The notes beneath the pieces were generated by a model. It was given only the letters and a program-made list of their open reading frames with translations, had not been told where the DNA came from and did no database searches. The position numbers and the translations under genes were made by a program. 5,651 nucleotides of DNA from Nitrososphaerota archaeon (GTDB taxonomy: Archaea > Thermoproteota > Nitrososphaeria > Nitrososphaerales > CADDZS01): assembly GCA_027314685.1 (NCBI GenBank), contig DAHVAI010000499.1, positions 1-5,651 of the forward strand, read 5' to 3'. Within the stretch, counting starts at the first letter, position 1; each line of letters opens with the position of its first letter. Positions 1 through 5,651 of this stretch are shown here, in pieces.

Positions 1-110
1 TCACCCTCAATATCCACCTTGTAGACAAGTCCCAGATCCACTATGTTGATAGGTATCTCAGGGTCGTAGCATTCTCGAAGTACTTCGAGTACCTCTTCTT
101 TGTTTGTCAT
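1..110 (-). CDS. DUF59/MIP18-family Fe-S cluster assembly protein (SufT/PaaD-like), N-terminal part
   Basis: The first 36 codons of a gene that runs off the left edge. The translation starts MTNKEEVLEVLRECYDPEIP and continues with INIVDLGLVY, the conserved DPEIP...DLG(L/I)VY signature of the DUF59/MIP18 family (residues 16-30). Family members such as SufT, PaaD and eukaryotic MIP18 are about 100 residues long and help assemble or insert cytosolic Fe-S clusters. The ATG is preceded by GGTGA (118-122 on the complementary strand), a good archaeal ribosome site, and an in-frame TAA lies a few codons upstream, so the start is secure. The gene lies outside the 5.1-kb insertion and diverges from the secreted-protein gene at the right edge, so the two were probably neighbours before insertion. 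The family is clear; the exact subtype cannot be settled from the N-terminus. Confidence 0.88.
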   Translation of the reverse strand, partial: MTNKEEVLEVLRECYDPEIPINIVDLGLVYKVDIEG

Positions 111-223: not shown

Positions 224-231
224 CATTTCTG
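224..231. repeat. Target-site duplication, left copy (CATTTCTG)
   Basis: CATTTCTG directly precedes the left inverted repeat and recurs at 5364-5371 directly after the right one. Eight bases is the duplication length typical of several IS families, including IS6, IS1595 and many IS1/IS256 members. The boundary has a one-base ambiguity: taking the repeat to begin GGG at 231 gives a 6-bp duplication (ATTTCT). Confidence 0.85.
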
Positions 232-258
232 GGTTCTGTTAAGTTGACGGTTGGCTGG
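232..258 (+). repeat. Left terminal inverted repeat
   Basis: It starts GGTTCTGTTAAGTTGACGG and is the exact reverse complement of 5342-5363 over 22 bases. It then continues with GCTGG against ATTGG at the other end, giving 25/27 identity. Such a long, near-perfect repeat next to a target duplication marks a transposase recognition end. Confidence 0.9.
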
Positions 259-345
259 ACAGGTTGTTAAGGGTCGGTTGGCATTTGCCTATCTGGTGGT
301 CGACTCTCTGGCACGTCAGTTTGTGCTTTCGGTTGATCGGTTGAT
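248..345 (+). repeat. Left subterminal CGGTTG motif cluster
   Basis: Four octamers share CGGTTG: CGGTTGGC at 248-255 and 275-282, and a tandem pair CGGTTGAT at 330-337 and 338-345. The first overlaps the terminal repeat. The same motif, inverted, occurs at the right end. Iterated subterminal motifs are typical transposase or host-factor binding sites; that role is inferred. Confidence 0.5.
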
Positions 346-465
346 AAGTTTAAGACGAGATGGATGAATTGCGTCTTCATGACTGGATGGAAAGTCCGTG
401 CGGTTCTGGTATTCTCTCTATTGCAGGTACTACCATGGACTTCCTTCAAGAGGAATGTGATTTGA
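259..465. other. Gene-free left end of the element
   Basis: About 200 bp between the left repeat and the first cargo gene. It holds the inner CGGTTG motifs and a weak TATA-like AGTTTAAG near 347-354 that could serve the gene starting at 466. A minus-strand open frame of 60 codons (267-449) looks non-coding: it is proline- and charge-rich with no recognisable domain. No RNA gene or strong hairpin was seen. Confidence 0.5.
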
Positions 466-1026
466 TTGGCTATTGATTATACTCTTCTGACAGTTATTGT
501 CCCATTTGTAGTCGGTCTTCCTACTTCACTTTGGGCCACAAATGAAATCTTCGCCAGATTTATAGATGAAAGACGTGATTCCATCACGAAAGGCAAAGAG
601 AATATATCGGTTTTTGTGAATAATCAAGTAGCGACATTGCAAGTAGCACTGAGAGAAGCACACAACCTGATTGAAGGGTGGAAGACACATCAGGACGACT
701 GGTACTCCAATAAGGACTTACAGGATAACTTGGATAAGATTATAGGTGGCATCGAAACCCTTGATGATATTGAGGATATTGGCGACGCATGCATATCATT
801 GCTTAAACGGATGAGAAAGGAATTTTTACTGGGTGTATTGGCAATCTGGACTGTGATCACTATCGATATTCTTGTCGAGATAGCAACGCCTGTCGATACC
901 CTGCCGTTGTTCTTCATTGAGCTTTTGGTTGCAGTCGTCCTCTTGCCTCCTAGAAAAGAAATGATTGACAAGTACAGGCAAAAAGTCAAGATGCTTGAGA
1001 AAAATAAGCTTATTAAAGAAGTCTAA
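466..1026 (+). CDS. Membrane protein of unknown function with three hydrophobic segments
   Basis: A 186-residue protein I do not recognise. Hydrophobic segments lie at about 6-26, 119-140 and 145-162. The middle region (about 28-115) is charged and mostly helical, and the C-terminal tail (163-186) is lysine-rich and probably cytoplasmic. The layout is one N-terminal TM, a soluble helical domain, then a TM hairpin. The start is TTG: an in-frame TGA immediately precedes it and no methionine codon is usefully placed before residue 115, so TTG is the only credible choice; an AGGA lies 11 bp upstream. It is AT-rich compared with the operon to the right, and converges with the 70-aa membrane gene with only 8 bp between stop codons. 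TM hairpins occur in many defence effectors, but nothing specific here supports that role. Confidence 0.72.
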   Translation: MAIDYTLLTVIVPFVVGLPTSLWATNEIFARFIDERRDSITKGKENISVFVNNQVATLQVALREAHNLIEGWKTHQDDWYSNKDLQDNLDKIIGGIETLDDIEDIGDACISLLKRMRKEFLLGVLAIWTVITIDILVEIATPVDTLPLFFIELLVAVVLLPPRKEMIDKYRQKVKMLEKNKLIKEV

Positions 1027-1034
1027 AAATGTTT

Positions 1035-1247
1035 CTAGCTGTCGTGAATGGATAGAACCATCCCAACAGCGACACCAACTGCGCCACCAGCCAGCATTCC
1101 CAGCGGGCCGCCTAAATAACCTATACCCACACCAATTGAAGCACTTGTACCAAGTTTTACTGAATCGATGAATTTACGATGTTCTCTGTATTCTTCTTTT
1201 ACCTTACGGGAAGCGGGTGGATGACTTATCGTCTTATCGTTCCACAA
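1035..1247 (-). CDS. Small glycine-zipper membrane protein
   Basis: A 70-residue protein with a charged N-terminal half (residues 12-28 rich in K, R and E) and a glycine-rich hydrophobic segment, about 33-66, with glycines at 33, 39, 41, 43, 46, 47, 50, 54, 55, 58 and 62. This spacing is typical of glycine-zipper helices that pack or oligomerise in membranes. The start is TTG, directly after an in-frame TAG. GTGGTG lies 6 bp upstream (1254-1259, complementary strand), and a TATA-like box TTTAATATAAG at 1301-1311 fits a short leader. These signals favour a real gene despite its size. The function is unknown. Its opposite orientation to, and near contact with, the 186-aa membrane gene suggests they may be linked, but that is inference. 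Confidence 0.58.
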   Translation of the reverse strand: MWNDKTISHPPASRKVKEEYREHRKFIDSVKLGTSASIGVGIGYLGGPLGMLAGGAVGVAVGMVLSIHDS

Positions 1248-1300
1248 CTATAACACCACTAACTGTGTAATTGTCTCTGTTGATATTAACGTTTAGCAAA

Positions 1301-1311
1301 CTTATATTAAA
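1301..1311 (-). promoter_or_regulatory. TATA-like box for the 70-aa membrane gene
   Basis: The minus strand reads TTTAATATAAG. Transcription about 25 bp downstream would start near 1275 and give a leader of roughly 28 nt containing the GTGGTG ribosome site before the TTG at 1247. Confidence 0.5.
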
Positions 1312-1421
1312 CAATTTGTTTCAAAAATCGGTCGTGACTGGTCCGGCCCCATTGAAAACAGAATCCCCCTAGGAGATAAATTATCATAAGAATGAGTTAA
1401 AGGTGATAGGACGAACTGCGA

Positions 1422-1751
1422 ATGGAATCAACCAGGAAGCAGAAGAAGGAGGTTGCAGCTGTGTACAGGCAATGGACTCCTGAACAGAAGTTCTCAATCA
1501 TCATGGAATACTACAACGACAAACTGCCAGTATCCGACCAGTGCAGGAAGCACAGGCTCTCTCCACAACTGTTCTCAAAGTGGAGAGACGAGTTCATAGA
1601 GAACGGCAAGAACGTCTTCGTGAAGCAGGAGAACCCCGACTCACTCCTGCTCAAGGAGATAGATGACTACAAGCGACTTGTGGCAGAGCTCACACTTGCA
1701 AACGAGGAATTGAAAAAAATACGACTGCTGAAGAGAGGCGGGAGGCGGTGA
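1422..1751 (+). CDS. IS3-type transposase OrfA (HTH_Tnp_1 helix-turn-helix)
   Basis: A 109-residue protein with the OrfA layout. A helix-turn-helix spans about 17-60 (WTPEQKFSIIMEYY, then VSDQCRKHRLSPQLFSKW). A leucine-rich coiled coil follows at about 75-99 with L76, L86, L90 and L97, which in IS3 OrfA proteins mediates dimerisation. OrfA binds the IS ends; the catalytic DDE domain comes from the OrfAB fusion. A run of seven A at 1713-1719 precedes the stop and could allow the family's -1 frameshift into orfB. GGTGAT at 1402-1407 is the nearest ribosome site, but 14 bp from the ATG is long. Without orfB this protein cannot transpose DNA itself, and its IS family does not match the ends of the large element. 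Confidence 0.78.
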   Translation: MESTRKQKKEVAAVYRQWTPEQKFSIIMEYYNDKLPVSDQCRKHRLSPQLFSKWRDEFIENGKNVFVKQENPDSLLLKEIDDYKRLVAELTLANEELKKIRLLKRGGRR

Positions 1752-1834
1752 GGAACCTAGTGAAGTCCATGTCAGTTCGTTCTCGACCGATTCGACAATC
1801 AGTCCAAAGAAAGCGAGTCCAGGAACTTCTGTGA
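1718..1834 (+). pseudogene. Remnant of IS3-type orfB (5' end only)
   Basis: A -1 shift at the A7 run opens a frame reading NTTAEERREAVRNLVKSM and then SVRSRP before a TGA at 1832-1834. The AVRNLVKSMSVR stretch fits the start of an IS3 OrfB, where a helix-turn-helix precedes the integrase core. Similarity fades after SVR (about 1782), and the DDE core is absent. The sequence from there to about 1860 is of unknown origin and may be a deletion scar. Confidence 0.5.
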
Positions 1835-1860
1835 CAATGCCAGAGGAGGAAGAAGTCGGG

Positions 1861-2784
1861 CTAGCATGGTGGAGTTGTTCTATTGGAATTAGTCAGACCA
1901 GTGCGCTCAGCAAGCCGAATTGCATGCCCCTTGCACCGTTCCTGAAGTAATGGAATCGACGCATTAGATATCAGGAGTTCTCTCCCTCTTTTCGGGGACT
2001 TGACACTATAATCAAGTGAAACTTCACTCATGTTGGCAGTGCTATATAGCTGCCTTATGTGAGGTTCGTCAGCGTAGCTCACCAACCATGGAGTGTCCAT
2101 TGAAAGCAACGCAGTAGCCAGTTCTGAGTGTTGATGTTCCGAGAAGAAATATCTGTACAGCTTGTCTCCAGCATCGAAGTAGGGCGGATCCACATAGTAG
2201 AAAGCACCAGCGTCAACGTCCTGTCTGCACTTCTTTGTTAGTTCTTGGAGCCCATCTGAAAGACGCACTTCAGTCTGCGAGGCAAAGCGACTCATTCTAT
2301 AAACCTGGTCTATGATGCGAGCGCGGTTGAATCTGCAATCTATGCTGTAACTCGAACTTTGAGTAGCACCCCCTATCGGCCCGGCACCAATAATGCCAGA
2401 GAAATTTGTCCTATTGAAGAAGACGCAGGCAGTAGCGAGGTCCAGCACGGAGTAATTCTGAGAGTTCTTCGCTTCGCGGAACTTCTGGAATTCATGCCAT
2501 GTCCGAAGTGAGATGTCGATTTTGTCGATTTTACCGCAGAGGTCATCTGGTGAATCAAGGGCGGCAGCTAAGAACGAATACACCAAAGGGTCGATTTCAA
2601 TAAGAATCGCCTTCTTCACCACTCTTCGTGCCAGAAGCTCAAATGAAACAATCCCGCTGCCCGCAAATGGCTCGCAGATTGTGCCAGAGTATAAGGCGTT
2701 CAGATTGACGAATGCTTCTAGGTGATCGGTGAGTGATGACTTGCTTCCAGGGTACCTAAGCGGACTTTGAATCAGATTGGACAA
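1861..2784 (-). CDS. D12-class (Dam-like) DNA adenine N6-methyltransferase
   Basis: A 307-residue enzyme that transfers a methyl group from S-adenosylmethionine to adenine in DNA. The family signature is in order: RYPGSK (10-15), the AdoMet-binding motif EPFAGSG (38-44), LIEIDP (61-66), FFNRTNFSG (122-130), the catalytic DPPY (199-202) and the late RGRELLISN block (266-274). All key residues are present and the length is normal for Dam/M.DpnII-type enzymes, so it should be active. The start is TTG: GAGGGA lies 6 bp upstream, and an in-frame TAA upstream with no start codon between leaves no alternative. It is the last gene of the minus-strand operon, 68 bp after the ParB-like gene. The last ~25 residues look non-conserved and may have been altered by the adjoining IS deletion. 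Specificity (GATC or other) cannot be read by eye. Confidence 0.93.
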   Translation of the reverse strand: MSNLIQSPLRYPGSKSSLTDHLEAFVNLNALYSGTICEPFAGSGIVSFELLARRVVKKAILIEIDPLVYSFLAAALDSPDDLCGKIDKIDISLRTWHEFQKFREAKNSQNYSVLDLATACVFFNRTNFSGIIGAGPIGGATQSSSYSIDCRFNRARIIDQVYRMSRFASQTEVRLSDGLQELTKKCRQDVDAGAFYYVDPPYFDAGDKLYRYFFSEHQHSELATALLSMDTPWLVSYADEPHIRQLYSTANMSEVSLDYSVKSPKRGRELLISNASIPLLQERCKGHAIRLAERTGLTNSNRTTPPC

Positions 2785-2790
2785 AGCGCA

Positions 2791-2796
2791 TCCCTC
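2791..2796 (-). promoter_or_regulatory. Ribosome binding site deciding the methyltransferase TTG start
   Basis: GAGGGA on the minus strand, 6 bp before the TTG. A nearby ATG (GGATGCGC) is out of frame, so this site supports the TTG. Confidence 0.6.
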
Positions 2797-2852
2797 GTTG
2801 ATTTATTACACATCTCGGCCAAAAACCTGTCGATGATATTACCGGAGGCAGG

Positions 2853-4223
2853 TCATACGTTCTCGTCAGCGAGTATCCTTTTGACTACAGTCCTAAAGAT
2901 ATCGGCATAGTACTTCAACGCCTCGGGGTTCGCATGTAGCCAGTTGCCATGAACTACTAAGTTCATGTAATCCTTCGGGGCAGCCGTCATCGTCTGGAAT
3001 ACAGTTAGGATGCTCTTGTCCTCGAACACTTTATTGGCAGCTCCTCGGCAGTACTTGAGTATGTTATTCAGCTTCACTTGAGGACCATATTTCTTGACGA
3101 ACGCATCGTAGACTCCCTTCTTCCTCATCTGGTAGACGAATGTCTTCTCGAGCAAAGTCCTGAACAGCATGGTGGCGGCTATTGGAAACTTCCTGAAATT
3201 GATGTTACGTATTTCGCCTGTGATGCTTGAGAGATGATCGTCTGGAACGTAACATTTTAGGGTCTCAAAGAACACATCTTTCTTCGTCTCCCTCTTTTCA
3301 GGCTGAGGTCGACATTCCTCTTCTACCTCTTGGAACTTTGATATGACGGCCCTAGTTTTCTCCTTCACTTCAGTTATAGGCGTCCTTGTGTCAAACGCAG
3401 GATCCCTCCTCAACTCTTTGTTGACAAGGAAGCCGCGAGCGAGGAAGGCTAGACCCGCATCAAACGCCTTCTTATGGAGTTCAGTCTTGGGCTCAAGCGT
3501 TTTACTGTCAAAGCTAAGTGAGAGGGTTTCAGCACCGTCTCTTGATTTCATGAATCTTGTGAACTTCGTGATTCCTACTCTGTTGTCCTTCATCATGTCG
3601 ATTTCATCGGACTTAAGTCCCTTGCACTGGAGGGCTCTCAAGTAGAGTTTGTAATCCTTGATGTCCCTCTCGATTTTGTACATGTCCTGTCCGAATTCCT
3701 TCGATATCGTAGCTATATCTGCACCCCCGTTGAAACGCCTATATGCCCTCCTCATTTGAGCGAGCCTACTCCACTTCTTGATGCCGTAGTCGGAATGACG
3801 GGATGTTATGATCGGCTCTGCGCTCAGTCTCGTTGGCGATACGTATGCCTTAATTGAACTCAAGCGCCCAGGTAGCTCAGAGGACCCATTTACGCTCGGA
3901 AAGTTTCCCCGGTGCTCCTGAGGCACCAGGGATGGTTTCATAAGAAGCTGTACCGCGCATACTCTCCTATTGCCTTCAAGGACAATCATCTGTTTGTCCT
4001 TCCTACAAAGAATTATCTTCTCACCTTCGAGCAGACCGTTCATGGCCACTATACTTTTTGCGAGACCAGTCACATCTTCCTCTTCTAACAAAGTCTTCCT
4101 TATCTCTTCTTGACTCGTGTCCGGCGGAAGATCCAGACGAGAGTTCTGGAGATCTAGCGTTAGCGAGAACGGGTCGACCTCTATCTCTTCCCAACTTTTC
4201 TCCGGTTCTATCTGTTTCTCCAA
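2853..4223 (-). CDS. ParB/Srx-fold DNA-binding protein with HTH and C-terminal helical domain
   Basis: A 456-residue protein in three parts. Residues 14-94 form a ParB/sulfiredoxin-like domain, with NSRL (27-30), a helix LAKSIVAMNGLLEG and the core VLEGNRRVCAVQLL (81-94), equivalent to the E-G-x-R-R box of ParB-type proteins. Residues 141-194 (RHSDYGIKKWSRLAQMRRAY, then IATISKEFGQDMYKIERDIK) look like the helix-turn-helix that follows in this group. After a charged linker (about 295-317), residues 318-452 form a helical domain with MLFRTLLEKTF and NLVVHGNWLH, reminiscent of HEPN/DUF4145-type domains, but without a clear RxxxxH. ParB-fold proteins bind DNA and can be CTPases or nucleases; which applies here is unknown. 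The TTG start is fixed by AGGAGG 8 bp upstream and an in-frame stop. Adjacency to the methyltransferase suggests a modification or defence role. Confidence 0.8.
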   Translation of the reverse strand: MEKQIEPEKSWEEIEVDPFSLTLDLQNSRLDLPPDTSQEEIRKTLLEEEDVTGLAKSIVAMNGLLEGEKIILCRKDKQMIVLEGNRRVCAVQLLMKPSLVPQEHRGNFPSVNGSSELPGRLSSIKAYVSPTRLSAEPIITSRHSDYGIKKWSRLAQMRRAYRRFNGGADIATISKEFGQDMYKIERDIKDYKLYLRALQCKGLKSDEIDMMKDNRVGITKFTRFMKSRDGAETLSLSFDSKTLEPKTELHKKAFDAGLAFLARGFLVNKELRRDPAFDTRTPITEVKEKTRAVISKFQEVEEECRPQPEKRETKKDVFFETLKCYVPDDHLSSITGEIRNINFRKFPIAATMLFRTLLEKTFVYQMRKKGVYDAFVKKYGPQVKLNNILKYCRGAANKVFEDKSILTVFQTMTAAPKDYMNLVVHGNWLHANPEALKYYADIFRTVVKRILADENV

Positions 4224-4231
4224 TTCGATTT

Positions 4232-4237
4232 CCTCCT
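4232..4237 (-). promoter_or_regulatory. Strong ribosome binding site of the ParB-like gene
   Basis: AGGAGG, 8 bp before the TTG at 4223. It begins within the TGA stop of the upstream two-TM gene, so translation of the two genes is probably coupled. Confidence 0.75.
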
Positions 4238-4506
4238 CATGGTTTCAATGATTTTATCTCATTGCTGAGTGCTTCTAGCTTTTTCTCGATAGATTGCAAC
4301 CTTTCCATCACACGCTGGTCCGGGATCCTTTCCCTGACTATGAAGGACCCTACGGCTATGGCTGTCCCGAGTCCGAAGAAGGTCAATCCATCCGTGAGAG
4401 ACTGAGTCTGCGTGAGCGGGAGCAATGCAACTCCTGCTAGCATAAGAGACAGCCCAGCAGCAAACAGTAACGATGAAGCAGTGCTGACGATGATTGGACG
4501 CTTCAC
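4237..4506 (-). CDS. Small two-TM protein with C-terminal coiled coil
   Basis: An 89-residue membrane protein with no recognised family. Hydrophobic helices lie at about 8-30 and 40-58, joined by a short polar loop (TQTQSLTDG). They are followed by the basic VRER and a helical, heptad-like tail (RVMERLQSIEKKLEALSNEI, about 65-84) that should project into the cytoplasm and could bind a partner. The GTG start overlaps the TGA stop of the wHTH gene by 4 bp (GTGA), a classic coupled junction, and the stop lies 13 bp before the ParB-like start. The three genes are therefore surely one operon. The coiled coil could tether operon products to the membrane, or the protein could be a membrane effector; neither is shown by the sequence. 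Confidence 0.75.
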   Translation of the reverse strand: MKRPIIVSTASSLLFAAGLSLMLAGVALLPLTQTQSLTDGLTFFGLGTAIAVGSFIVRERIPDQRVMERLQSIEKKLEALSNEIKSLKP

Positions 4507-4781
4507 CCCTTCAGCACCTCCTCAATCTTCTTGAGCAGCTCGGCGACCTTCTTGCCCTTGGGGGTGAGGGAAATCATGTTCTTTGGTGGATAGGAGGAGT
4601 TGTCGACGCGAGAAGAGATGAGCCCTAGTTCCCGAGCTTTATCGAGGGACCTGTACCCTTGATTTGTACCAATATCAGCTTCTTCCCATATCTTTGAAAG
4701 AATATACTCGCCTTTGTCCGAAAGGAAAACTACCATCCTGATTAGGCCGGACTGTCGCTCAAATACCTGAATTCGTAGCAC
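4503..4781 (-). CDS. Small winged-helix DNA-binding protein, likely operon regulator
   Basis: A 92-residue protein read as an archaeal winged helix. Residues 22-56 give the helix-turn-helix (DKGEYILSKIWEEADIGTNQ then YRSLDKARELGLISS). A short wing includes residues 57-72 (ending PKNMISLT), and a closing helix GKKVAELLKKIEEVL spans 76-90. The ISLTPKGKKVAELL ending is common in archaeal wHTH proteins. GTG is taken as the start because a weak AGGGA lies 4 bp upstream; an internal ATG at residue 16 is possible and would keep the whole domain. It is first in the operon, directly downstream of a divergent promoter region, the usual position for an autoregulator. A role as sequence-specific repressor is inference. 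Confidence 0.78.
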   Translation of the reverse strand: MLRIQVFERQSGLIRMVVFLSDKGEYILSKIWEEADIGTNQGYRSLDKARELGLISSRVDNSSYPPKNMISLTPKGKKVAELLKKIEEVLKG

Positions 4782-4810
4782 TTTCCCTGAAATGCCGTCT
4801 TTAGTTATGA

Positions 4811-4850
4811 GATATATTATCTGTTTCTAGCAACAATAGATATATATGGC
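4811..4850. promoter_or_regulatory. Divergent promoter region with paired TATA-like boxes
   Basis: The 64-bp gap between the wHTH start (4781, minus) and the broken small gene (4846, plus) has two boxes. GATATATTATC at 4811-4821 is nearly palindromic, and about 30 bp before the ATG at 4846 it suits a leaderless plus-strand transcript. ATATATATC on the minus strand near 4838-4846 would give the operon a leader of about 35-40 nt. The wHTH product could act here. Confidence 0.5.
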
Positions 4851-5151
4851 AATGAGTAATATACCTCGTTTGCAAAGTGGAAACATGATGAAGAGGTATC
4901 TACTTTCGCTTTCCCCAGAACTTTCAGAATGGCTCGACAGTCGCGGGGAATACAGACCATAAGGCATGTTTGAAAAATCTGTTTCTGAGGCCAAGAAGAA
5001 TGAAGAAGAGCTGGTCCGCCTCCTGAAGTCCGAGGTTCCGTTCCTCAGGAGGCTCACTGATGTCGTTTCAGTGCGTCCTATGCGGCGGCAGGATTGCGGG
5101 GTCGATATCTCACTTCCTCGCTTTGGACTTTTCGAGTTCCCTCCTCAGTAA
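4846..5151 (+). pseudogene. Small DNA-binding-type protein gene interrupted by an in-frame TAA
   Basis: A single frame reads MKRYLLSLSPELSEWLDSRG from residue 15, then EYRP, then TAA (4960-4962), then continues without shift as GMFEKSVSEAKKNEEELVRL. The first part, a strand-like start followed by LSPELSEWLDSRGEYRP, resembles archaeal ribbon-helix-helix proteins, and the sequence after the stop reads as the natural continuation of its helix. One base change (for example TCA to TAA) explains the stop. Alternatives are two separate short genes (4846-4962 and 4966-5151), the second with its own ATG 3 bp after the stop. The last ~14 codons overlap the opposite-strand RHH gene and are probably not original coding sequence. 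Probable leaderless start at 4846 or 4852. The family call is tentative. Confidence 0.55.
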
Positions 5152-5265
5152 CTCGTTGACAAATTCGGAAACTGACCGATATCCCATCTCGGCGTGATCC
5201 TTGAGGAACTGCTCAATCTTCTAGAAGAATGGTTTGGGAATTCTTGCGGATGAATATCCTGGCAT
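5110..5265 (-). pseudogene. Ribbon-helix-helix (CopG/Arc-type) protein gene with in-frame TAG
   Basis: Fifty-one codons read MPGYSSARIPKPFF, TAG (5221-5223), then KIEQFLKDHAEMGYRSVSEF and VNELLRRELEKSKARK before TGA. This matches small archaeal RHH regulators or antitoxins: a DNA-contacting strand (YSSARIP), helix A (FFxKIEQFLKDH), a GYRSVSEFV turn and helix B. The only fault is the amber at codon 15, where a glutamate is likely (GAG to TAG, one change). Without suppression the product would be 14 residues, and no later start could restore the strand, so I call it a pseudogene. Upstream, TTTTTTAG about 24-31 bp before the ATG could be a TATA box for leaderless transcription. It lies next to the right end of the element; its toxin partner, if any, is not visible. 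Confidence 0.72.
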
Positions 5266-5288
5266 ACATGCAACATCCAAGTTAAATG

Positions 5289-5296
5289 CTAAAAAA
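5289..5296 (-). promoter_or_regulatory. Possible TATA box of the RHH gene
   Basis: TTTTTTAG on the minus strand, about 24-31 bp before the ATG at 5265, a spacing that fits leaderless archaeal transcription. Assigned on composition and position only. Confidence 0.3.
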
Positions 5297-5301
5297 TCTT
5301 G

Positions 5302-5347
5302 TTTCCAATCATGTCAACCGGCGCTTAGCACTCTTTCCAATCAACCG
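5302..5347 (-). repeat. Right subterminal motif cluster
   Basis: On the minus strand CGGTTGAT (5340-5347) and CGGTTGAC (5313-5320) repeat the octamers of the left end. A second word, GATTGGAAA, also occurs twice (5334-5342 and 5302-5310), each time near a CGGTTG. The arrangement suggests two copies of a binding site inside the right terminus. Confidence 0.5.
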
Positions 5348-5363
5348 TCAACTTAACAGAACC
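5337..5363 (-). repeat. Right terminal inverted repeat
   Basis: The reverse complement of the left repeat, 22 identical bases from the outer end and 25/27 overall. It ends in ...TTAACAGAACC on the plus strand and is followed at once by the second CATTTCTG. Confidence 0.9.
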
Positions 5364-5371
5364 CATTTCTG
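5364..5371. repeat. Target-site duplication, right copy (CATTTCTG)
   Basis: Identical to 224-231. Removing the element and one copy restores a continuous intergenic region between the DUF59 and secreted-protein genes. Confidence 0.85.
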
Positions 5372-5376
5372 GCATG

Positions 5377-5384
5377 TTTAAATA
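5377..5384 (+). promoter_or_regulatory. TATA box outside the right end of the element
   Basis: GTTTAAATAG contains a good archaeal TATA core. It lies only about 6 bp beyond the target duplication, so the insertion replaced the sequence where a BRE and upstream operators would sit. An ATG at 5404, about 24 bp downstream, would be a leaderless start in frame with the secreted protein. Confidence 0.5.
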
Positions 5385-5463
5385 GCTGTGTCAATAACCG
5401 GAAATGCGAAAAGGCGTGACACAATCGCGATTGATGTTCCCGTTGGATAGCCGAAAACAAAGT

Positions 5464-5471
5464 CATTTAAG
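5464..5471 (+). promoter_or_regulatory. Second TATA-like box, nearer the secreted-protein ATG
   Basis: CATTTAAG centred about 27 bp before the ATG at 5494, the usual distance for a leaderless archaeal transcript. It competes with the box at 5377 as the promoter. Confidence 0.4.
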
Positions 5472-5493
5472 AAGGATCAGGATCGTCCTCAAG

Positions 5494-5651
5494 ATGAAAA
5501 AGCTACTCGCTGCACTAGTCGCCCTGGCACTTGTTTCAGTCTATTCTCTCATGGTTGCTGCGCCAGGAGCTTACGGCTCCGCTTCGCCACTTGTCCCCGT
5601 CACGTCCGACGCTATCGGCATCCCTGCCGGAGCAGTCAATACCCATGCGCA
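5494..5651 (+). CDS. Secreted or membrane-anchored protein, N-terminal part
   Basis: The first 52 residues of a gene that runs off the right edge. It opens with a Sec-type signal peptide: MKK, a hydrophobic core (LLAALVALALVSVYSLMVAA, residues 4-23) and a small-residue region PGAYGSAS where cleavage could fall near residues 27-30. The mature part begins with a proline- and serine-rich stretch (PLVPVTSDAIGIPAG), often seen as a spacer before an extracellular domain. I do not recognise the family. The frame is also open upstream to an ATG at 5404, adding 30 basic residues; I prefer 5494 because it gives a normal signal peptide. No good ribosome site precedes either ATG, so leaderless translation is likely. 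The gene lies outside the insertion. Confidence 0.7.
   Translation, partial: MKKLLAALVALALVSVYSLMVAAPGAYGSASPLVPVTSDAIGIPAGAVNTHA

Follow-up and report, generated by a model that had tools for sequence, protein, structure and literature searches.

Mobile insertion cassettes have the ends of an insertion sequence (IS) family, a target duplication and passenger genes, and they contain no transposase. The name of such cassettes, exemplified by the MIC231 type, and the references to it appear in the reference list of PMC2266710. For the IS6 family, passages of PMC7986276 describe 8-bp direct target repeats, the existence of zinc-finger-bearing subclades, a typical size of ~800 bp (most members falling at about 700-890 bp and the three longest at 1710-1760 bp) and a single passenger-bearing member, ISDsp3. 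In the sections of PMC6563490 that we draw on, a 2019 survey of thaumarchaeal mobile elements, IS-like transposons typically have one or two genes, and archaea are said to have yielded no composite transposon that carries passenger genes. The PD-Lambda-5 defence system is described, in a bacterial prophage setting, in parts of PMC9519451. Here, we present an analysis of a 5,651-nucleotide stretch of DNA (the window) of a Nitrososphaerota archaeon (DAHVAI010000499.1), read as a complete contig because a protein search places its ParB-like protein on one contig of 5651 bp, most of which is occupied by a single element with IS-family ends, a duplication of the length found in that family, no transposase and unrelated passenger genes. 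We conclude that this element is very probably a mobile insertion cassette, that is, a non-autonomous member of an IS6-like transposon family found in Nitrososphaeria, with a two-gene PD-Lambda-5-like operon in place of a transposase.

The inverted ends at positions 232 and 5363 are identical over 22/22 bases and match at 25/27, 27/30 and 44/55 positions over longer stretches, and the sequence CATTTCTG directly abuts both of them with 8/8 identity. When the window was resampled 300 times under a Markov-1 model, exact inverted repeats whose arms were separated by at least 1 kb never exceeded 16 bp; the 22-bp repeat with its abutting 8-bp duplication is not explained by chance. The first-pass annotation, which was made from the sequence alone, had reported an exact 22-bp (25/27 extended) inverted repeat with arms ~5.1 kb apart and identical duplications bordering both ends; both features are real when recomputed. 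Its coordinates, 224-5371, span the two duplications as well, while the element proper comprises 5132 bp at 232-5363. In the left flank, 14 bases (120-133) match ACCGTCAACTTAAC of the right end at 13/14 positions, and this stretch is either a relic of an older end or due to chance.

A 19-letter pattern of the end, with one position free, occurred in three stretches of the genome collection (L001, L002 and L003; L-numbers denote fetched loci of sampled genomes). The bipartite end is complete (49.1 bits) only in L001, from a Nitrososphaerota metagenome-assembled genome (MAG), and this end adjoins the C-terminus of a transposase (family profile 74.7 bits, positions 321-365 of 366), of which a 38-amino-acid (aa) peptide matched no Pfam family. 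The matches in L002 (Ratteibacteria) and L003 (Lachnospiraceae) cover only the first 28 and 23 of the 55 model positions, respectively, and were read as chance, the latter additionally lying inside a long open frame. Among 300 genomes sampled from the class of L001, a 17-mer of the end with at most one mismatch was found in 17, compared with 4 for the pattern read backwards, and one of these matches, in genome G043, led to a 377-aa transposase at L021:2379-3509. This protein matches DDE_Tnp_IS240 (PF13610; 64.8 bits, cut-off 27), has SWIM- and Zn_ribbon_InsA-like N-terminal parts (both Pfam matches below the cut-off), matches two NCBIfam zinc-binding domain models just above their cut-offs and scores 121 bits against NCBIfam transpos_IS6 (NF033587), just under the curated cut-off of 125. 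The transpos_IS6 model was matched by 11/11 tested transposases (E up to 1e-10), and transposase matches, weak ones included, were present in 149/300 genomes (E up to 0.001). Alignment of 35 ends gave an outer module, GGTTCTGTnAAGTTGACGGTTGAT, and an inner module, TGTnAAnTGTCGGTTGAT, which starts roughly 33-43 bases from the terminus; the profile of these ends had matches in 155/300 genomes (E up to 0.05). Thus, the search for a complete IS with these ends, which had been proposed as a check, led to a related family that shares the bipartite ends and the 8-bp length of the duplication, but not to the exact parent.

Related elements were collected around the ends (the first 100 listed end matches gave 84 regions, with 80 fetched and 4 short ones dropped) and supplemented by 30 transposase-chosen loci that were picked by the search tool. 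Altogether, 68 distinct candidate end pairings were obtained, one-base registers being counted apart. Identical 8-bp flanks were present in 30/68 pairings, window included, and none had 9 bp, whereas a displaced control gave 0 identical flanks at each of 44 offsets over the 68 pairings. Besides the window, 23 duplicated elements contain a transposase and measure 1970-4182 bp (median 2835 bp); because this size range fails the short, simple organisation of IS6, we file these parents as IS6-like and not as plain IS6. The transposase is interrupted in L033 and L132. Six elements with a perfect 8-bp duplication are transposase-less (L024/L110, L104, L117, L122, L135 and L143), with L135 holding a transposase remnant of 27 profile positions, and L113 is transposase-less with a 7/8 duplication. 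Counting the end-chosen loci only, 18 of the 25 paired elements have a transposase and 7 do not (one with a 7/8 duplication and one with a remnant). Of all transposase-less elements found, that in the window is the longest. A family with the same bipartite ends, the same 8-bp duplication and other transposase-less members therefore backs the initial reading of the block as a mobile insertion cassette. L023, in which TnpB lies between similar ends, was not counted, as it has no target duplication.

Passenger genes are frequent in this family. Based on a mechanical list with a crude transposase tag, 21/23 transposase-bearing elements hold at least one further open reading frame (ORF) of at least 60 aa. 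Using Pfam, we found proteasome-subunit-like passengers in L035 (459-1271) and L039 (201-1034) and no Pfam family for the passengers of L079, L132 and L104. By eye, the ORFs at L043:314-1240 and L052:243-1172 are similar to the proteasome-subunit-like passengers. Pfam also pointed to a MazE-like antitoxin at L040:1188-1403, and small ORF pairs that look toxin-antitoxin-like by eye are present at L079:6727-7204, where the ORF has no Pfam family, and at L033:2607-3045. In the transposase-less element L143 (151-1585), which has an 8-bp duplication, a DNA methylase that includes an Mrr-type endonuclease domain is present but broken. A TnpB-like gene (Cas12f1-like_TNB) is the main cargo at L117:151-1520 (8/8 duplication) and L113:6178-7501 (7/8), and the ORF at L023:439-1700, without duplication, is TnpB-like by eye; TnpB carried by a DDE-type cassette would be unusual.

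The minus-strand operon of the window runs from 4781 to 1861 and encodes, in this order, a winged-helix-like ORF, a small membrane-like ORF, a ParB-like protein and a D12 methylase. The last two genes adjoin, with 68 bp between them, and match both PD-Lambda-5 subunits in PADLOC. The cargo had previously been described as a methyltransferase operon; the methylase operon is indeed present, and on these matches it is likely a PD-Lambda-5-like pair, a putative virus-defence system. The C-terminal domain of the ParB-like protein appears to be HEPN-like. The profile of the ParB-like protein found no clear relative by sequence in the PDB (best E 0.05). Judged by sequence, the A/B gene pair is conserved: it is seen also in Marinobacter phage AS1, which encodes a protein related to A (25.7% over 93%), followed after 9 bp by a methylase that is 31% identical to that of the window over 279 positions. 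Further linked pairs are suggested by the tables of the two protein searches, in which hits agree in the length of the longest contig (1689938, 8441, 8697 and 3054). The nearest relatives of the ParB-like protein are 82% and then 77% identical, the second being the nearest named one and coming from a Nitrososphaerota MAG. Such protein relatives, together with the occurrence of the end family in the class searched, support the archaeal origin that the first-pass annotation had assumed for the window. For the ParB-like protein itself, 5 of 400 genomes of the class gave matches, at best over 83-85 residues at 33-39% identity, and its 77%-identical relative had only distant matches, in 4 of 250 genomes of the order. 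The window DNA matched no plasmid, and the terminal-repeat pattern was absent from IMG/VR; when the ParB-like protein and the methylase were used as queries in IMG/VR, one search was empty and the other gave two pattern matches, neither of which was confirmed. For the orphan ORF at the left side of the element, a protein search at E up to 0.001 returned only the ORF itself.

A transposase of the cognate family was not detected in the window, the best E in hmmsearch with filters off being 3.6 (single domain 3.2). Among the submitted window ORFs, Pfam and NCBIfam gave a single transposition-related match, the HTH_Tnp_1 orfA-like ORF, which has no catalytic domain. These profile searches agree with the earlier claim that the element contains no intact transposase and only an IS3 orfA of another family. 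The ORF scores 38.3 bits against NF033516 (cut-off 160; profile positions 1-82 of 369) and, weakly, 31.1 bits (cut-off 74) against the IS66 accessory protein TnpA. An IS3 parentage, as suggested by this ORF, was rejected, since the ends and the 8-bp duplication fit the IS6-like family. The lone orfA-like helix-turn-helix (HTH) protein is perhaps the leftover of an IS3-type insertion or a retained regulator.

The alternative that survives best, although we consider it unlikely, is that the element is a dead relic, i.e. an autonomous family member that lost its transposase by internal deletion after gaining the cargo and is now immobile. Relatives with remnants are in line with this possibility, namely L135, with its fragment, and L001, where only the C-terminus of the transposase is left beside the one end. 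However, the window contains no detectable transposase remnant, and both ends and both 8-bp duplications are perfect; therefore, the block was inserted as it stands or has changed little since. It is distinctly improbable that the element has an unrecognised transposase of its own, such as the orfA-like HTH protein or the product of another ORF. This protein matches HTH_Tnp_1 and, weakly, TnpA of IS66, a family with a target duplication of 8 bp, but the submitted ORFs include no catalytic domain, and the ends and duplication fit the IS6-like family, for which the transposase is known in relatives. Two independent IS ends facing each other by chance, or an assembly artefact in what is a metagenome contig of 5.65 kb, are hardly credible given the full bipartite layout in both ends, the exact flanking 8-bp repeat and the empty displaced controls.

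Several observations weigh against a mobile insertion cassette of the IS6-like family with a PD-Lambda-5-like cargo. Among the cargo proteins, the similarity of the ParB-like protein to PD-Lambda-5_A is moderate. Moreover, HEPN domains usually have the catalytic motif Rx4-6H, and this motif is not kept; H425 is present in 15/16 rows, with no R constantly 5-7 residues before it. As regards the parent family, all 11 tested transposases match transpos_IS1 too, albeit more weakly, and the best match of the window's ends to another paired element is only 24/30 bases, so that the true parent was not found. Restriction-modification genes were seen in just one of the seven other transposase-less elements, L143, where they are broken (the cargo of L122 and L135 lay outside the search). 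Finally, the comparison with relatives that had been proposed as a check gave no empty site among the 300 genomes: the 511-nt joined flanks matched in 10, all in the start of the iron-sulfur gene or at query positions ~325-364, and none across the junction.

Comparison of the flanks between elements gave unexpected homology, and members of the family tend to insert 4-8 bp ahead of a TATA-like box, a pattern into which the window fits. The analysed flanks were those of ends with at least 22 bits, leaving out the window and ends directly followed by another end, with one flank per homology cluster (n=59). With TATA motifs and a position window that were chosen after examples had been seen, the strict motif begins 12-15 nt away from the end of the element in 9/59 flanks compared with a mean of 0.43 (maximum 2) in 30 equal windows further out, and a looser motif at 12-16 nt is present in 19/59 compared with 2.25 expected (maximum 6 in 24 windows). 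The preference holds for two motifs and four thresholds, the window being left out. The contrast was weaker when Markov-1 shuffles of the flanks, rather than displaced positions, served as the control (strict motif, mean 1.28 and maximum 8 in 500 versus 9 observed). If only one side of an insertion faces a promoter, the motif could be expected in at most about half of the flanks. A TATA-like box at this distance is missing in L113, L117 and L135.

In each of eight genomes, a transposase-bearing element (L021, L031/L082, L037/L093, L040, L049/L070, L075, L079 and L132) is located just upstream of radA, so that 37 or 40 nt separate the duplication from the first or second codon of this gene. In L021, L031, L075, L079 and L132, the duplication is followed at 6-7 nt by the strict TATA motif, and in the other three TTTATT or TTTAAT is present there. 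These elements may not all be separate insertions, some being inherited ones with changed content; similarly, L041 and L046, which have a common flank and duplication, may represent one inherited insertion. Insertions at the radA site could possibly affect expression of the recombinase. The elements also form arrays, with stacked elements at L021:2064-2073, L030, L037, L040, L041, L047, L049, L075, L106 and other loci. Where outward-facing ends lie within 60 nt of each other (at least one of them with at least 22 bits), every one of the 15 distinct junction sequences has exactly 8 nt between the ends; L039 and L075 overlap, leaving 14 places, and 14/14 are at 8 bp. In a plain motif count of 106 ends, a following end was found at 8 nt in 17 cases, at 0 nt in one and at 83 nt in one. 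A spacing of 8 bp is expected if new elements enter the same site, time and again, beside an older one.

We tentatively speculate that the basal machinery of transcription, be it TBP/TFB or the bent TATA box, might guide the transposase of the cargo-bearing IS6-like family of Nitrososphaeria, that repeated landing 4-8 bp upstream without harm to the gene might build 8-bp-spaced arrays before housekeeping genes such as radA, and that transposase-less cassettes might spread defence in the same way. The spacing to TATA raises the testable question of whether an archaeal transposase reads the promoter or promoter-bound proteins.

For the element in the window, the ends and the duplication suggest a mechanism in which an autonomous relative would provide, in trans, a DDE transposase whose N-terminal parts bind zinc; this enzyme would recognise the outer and the inner module at either end, and the block would have been inserted through an 8-bp staggered cut. 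Insertion would have occurred immediately ahead of a host gene's TATA box (Table 1), one instance here of the family pattern, and therefore the gene would keep its core promoter. Based on the domains and the published description of PD-Lambda-5, we suggest that the methylase would mark host DNA, whereas the ParB-fold/HEPN-like protein would sense unmarked or invading DNA and shut the cell down, thereby combining modification with abortive infection.

Table 1. Features of the window, in order of position
Feature	Positions	Strand	Basis and remarks
Beginning of the left flanking gene (iron-sulfur cluster assembly protein), not part of the element	1..110	-	PF01883, 36.9 bits
Left target-site duplication, CATTTCTG	224..231		Sequence, 8/8 identical to 5364-5371
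Left bipartite terminal inverted repeat, outer GGTTCTGTTAAGTTGACGGTTG and inner TGTTAAGGGTCGGTTGG	232..282	+	End profile, 35.1 bits; this end is among the 35 rows of the profile
Orphan ORF, 186 aa, hydrophobic stretches	466..1026	+	ORF call
Solitary IS3-orfA/HTH_Tnp_1-like ORF, 109 aa	1422..1751	+	PF01527, 41.5 bits; catalytic partner absent
D12-class adenine DNA methylase, PD-Lambda-5_B-like, 307 aa	1861..2784	-	PADLOC PDLC04018, 262.5 bits, E 1.1e-78; PF02086, 71.6 bits
ParB-fold protein with putative HEPN-like C-terminal domain, PD-Lambda-5_A-like, 456 aa	2853..4223	-	PADLOC PDLC04013, 109.9 bits, E 4.4e-32; model and fold comparisons
Small membrane-protein-like ORF	4237..4506	-	4-base overlap with the next ORF; weak family matches below cut-off
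Winged-helix regulator-like ORF, head of the operon	4503..4781	-	Weak PadR, HxlR and phage-regulator matches below cut-off
Right bipartite terminal inverted repeat	5312..5363	-	End profile, 33.1 bits; this end is among the 35 rows of the profile
Right target-site duplication, CATTTCTG	5364..5371		Sequence
TATA-like box, TTTAAATA, before the right flanking gene	5377..5384	+	5 nt beyond the right duplication; ATG at 5404
Right flanking gene, secreted-protein-like, runs off the contig	5404..5651	+	Start at 5404, or at 5494 at the signal peptide

In the openly licensed literature, including the parts consulted of PMC7986276, PMC6563490, PMC9519451, PMC5797428 and PMC2266710 and with ISfinder outside this search, we found no report of this IS6-like family or of its targeting. 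In the text of PMC6563490, the words TATA and promoter are absent, and the sole passage on radA concerns another element. The element in the window and its relatives supply passenger-bearing transposons, which are apparently common, together with non-autonomous derivatives, and they would provide a concrete route for the movement of defence genes between archaea. With mobile insertion cassettes, the window shares IS-family ends, a target duplication, passenger genes and the lack of a transposase; it differs from the MIC231 type in its archaeal IS6-like parent, its bipartite ends, its putative defence-pair cargo and its promoter-proximal insertion. Like members of the IS6 family, the elements described here have an 8-bp target duplication, and their transposase, which matches DDE_Tnp_IS240, is probably of the same type; unlike them, they measure 1970-4182 bp, mostly contain further ORFs (21/23) and encode a transposase of ~377 aa whose N-terminal parts weakly resemble SWIM and zinc-ribbon domains. 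The adjacent methylase and partner genes resemble PD-Lambda-5 in that they match the A and B profiles of PADLOC; however, the putative system in the window is archaeal, lies in a transposon cassette and has extra winged-helix-like and membrane ORFs. In yeast, Ty3 and Ty1 show promoter-targeted integration. As in Ty3 and Ty1, insertion keeps a set, short spacing to the core promoter elements that lie downstream, and the gene is spared; by contrast, the elements described here are prokaryotic transposons of the DDE type that insert at archaeal TATA promoters of protein genes, and any targeting factor is hypothetical.

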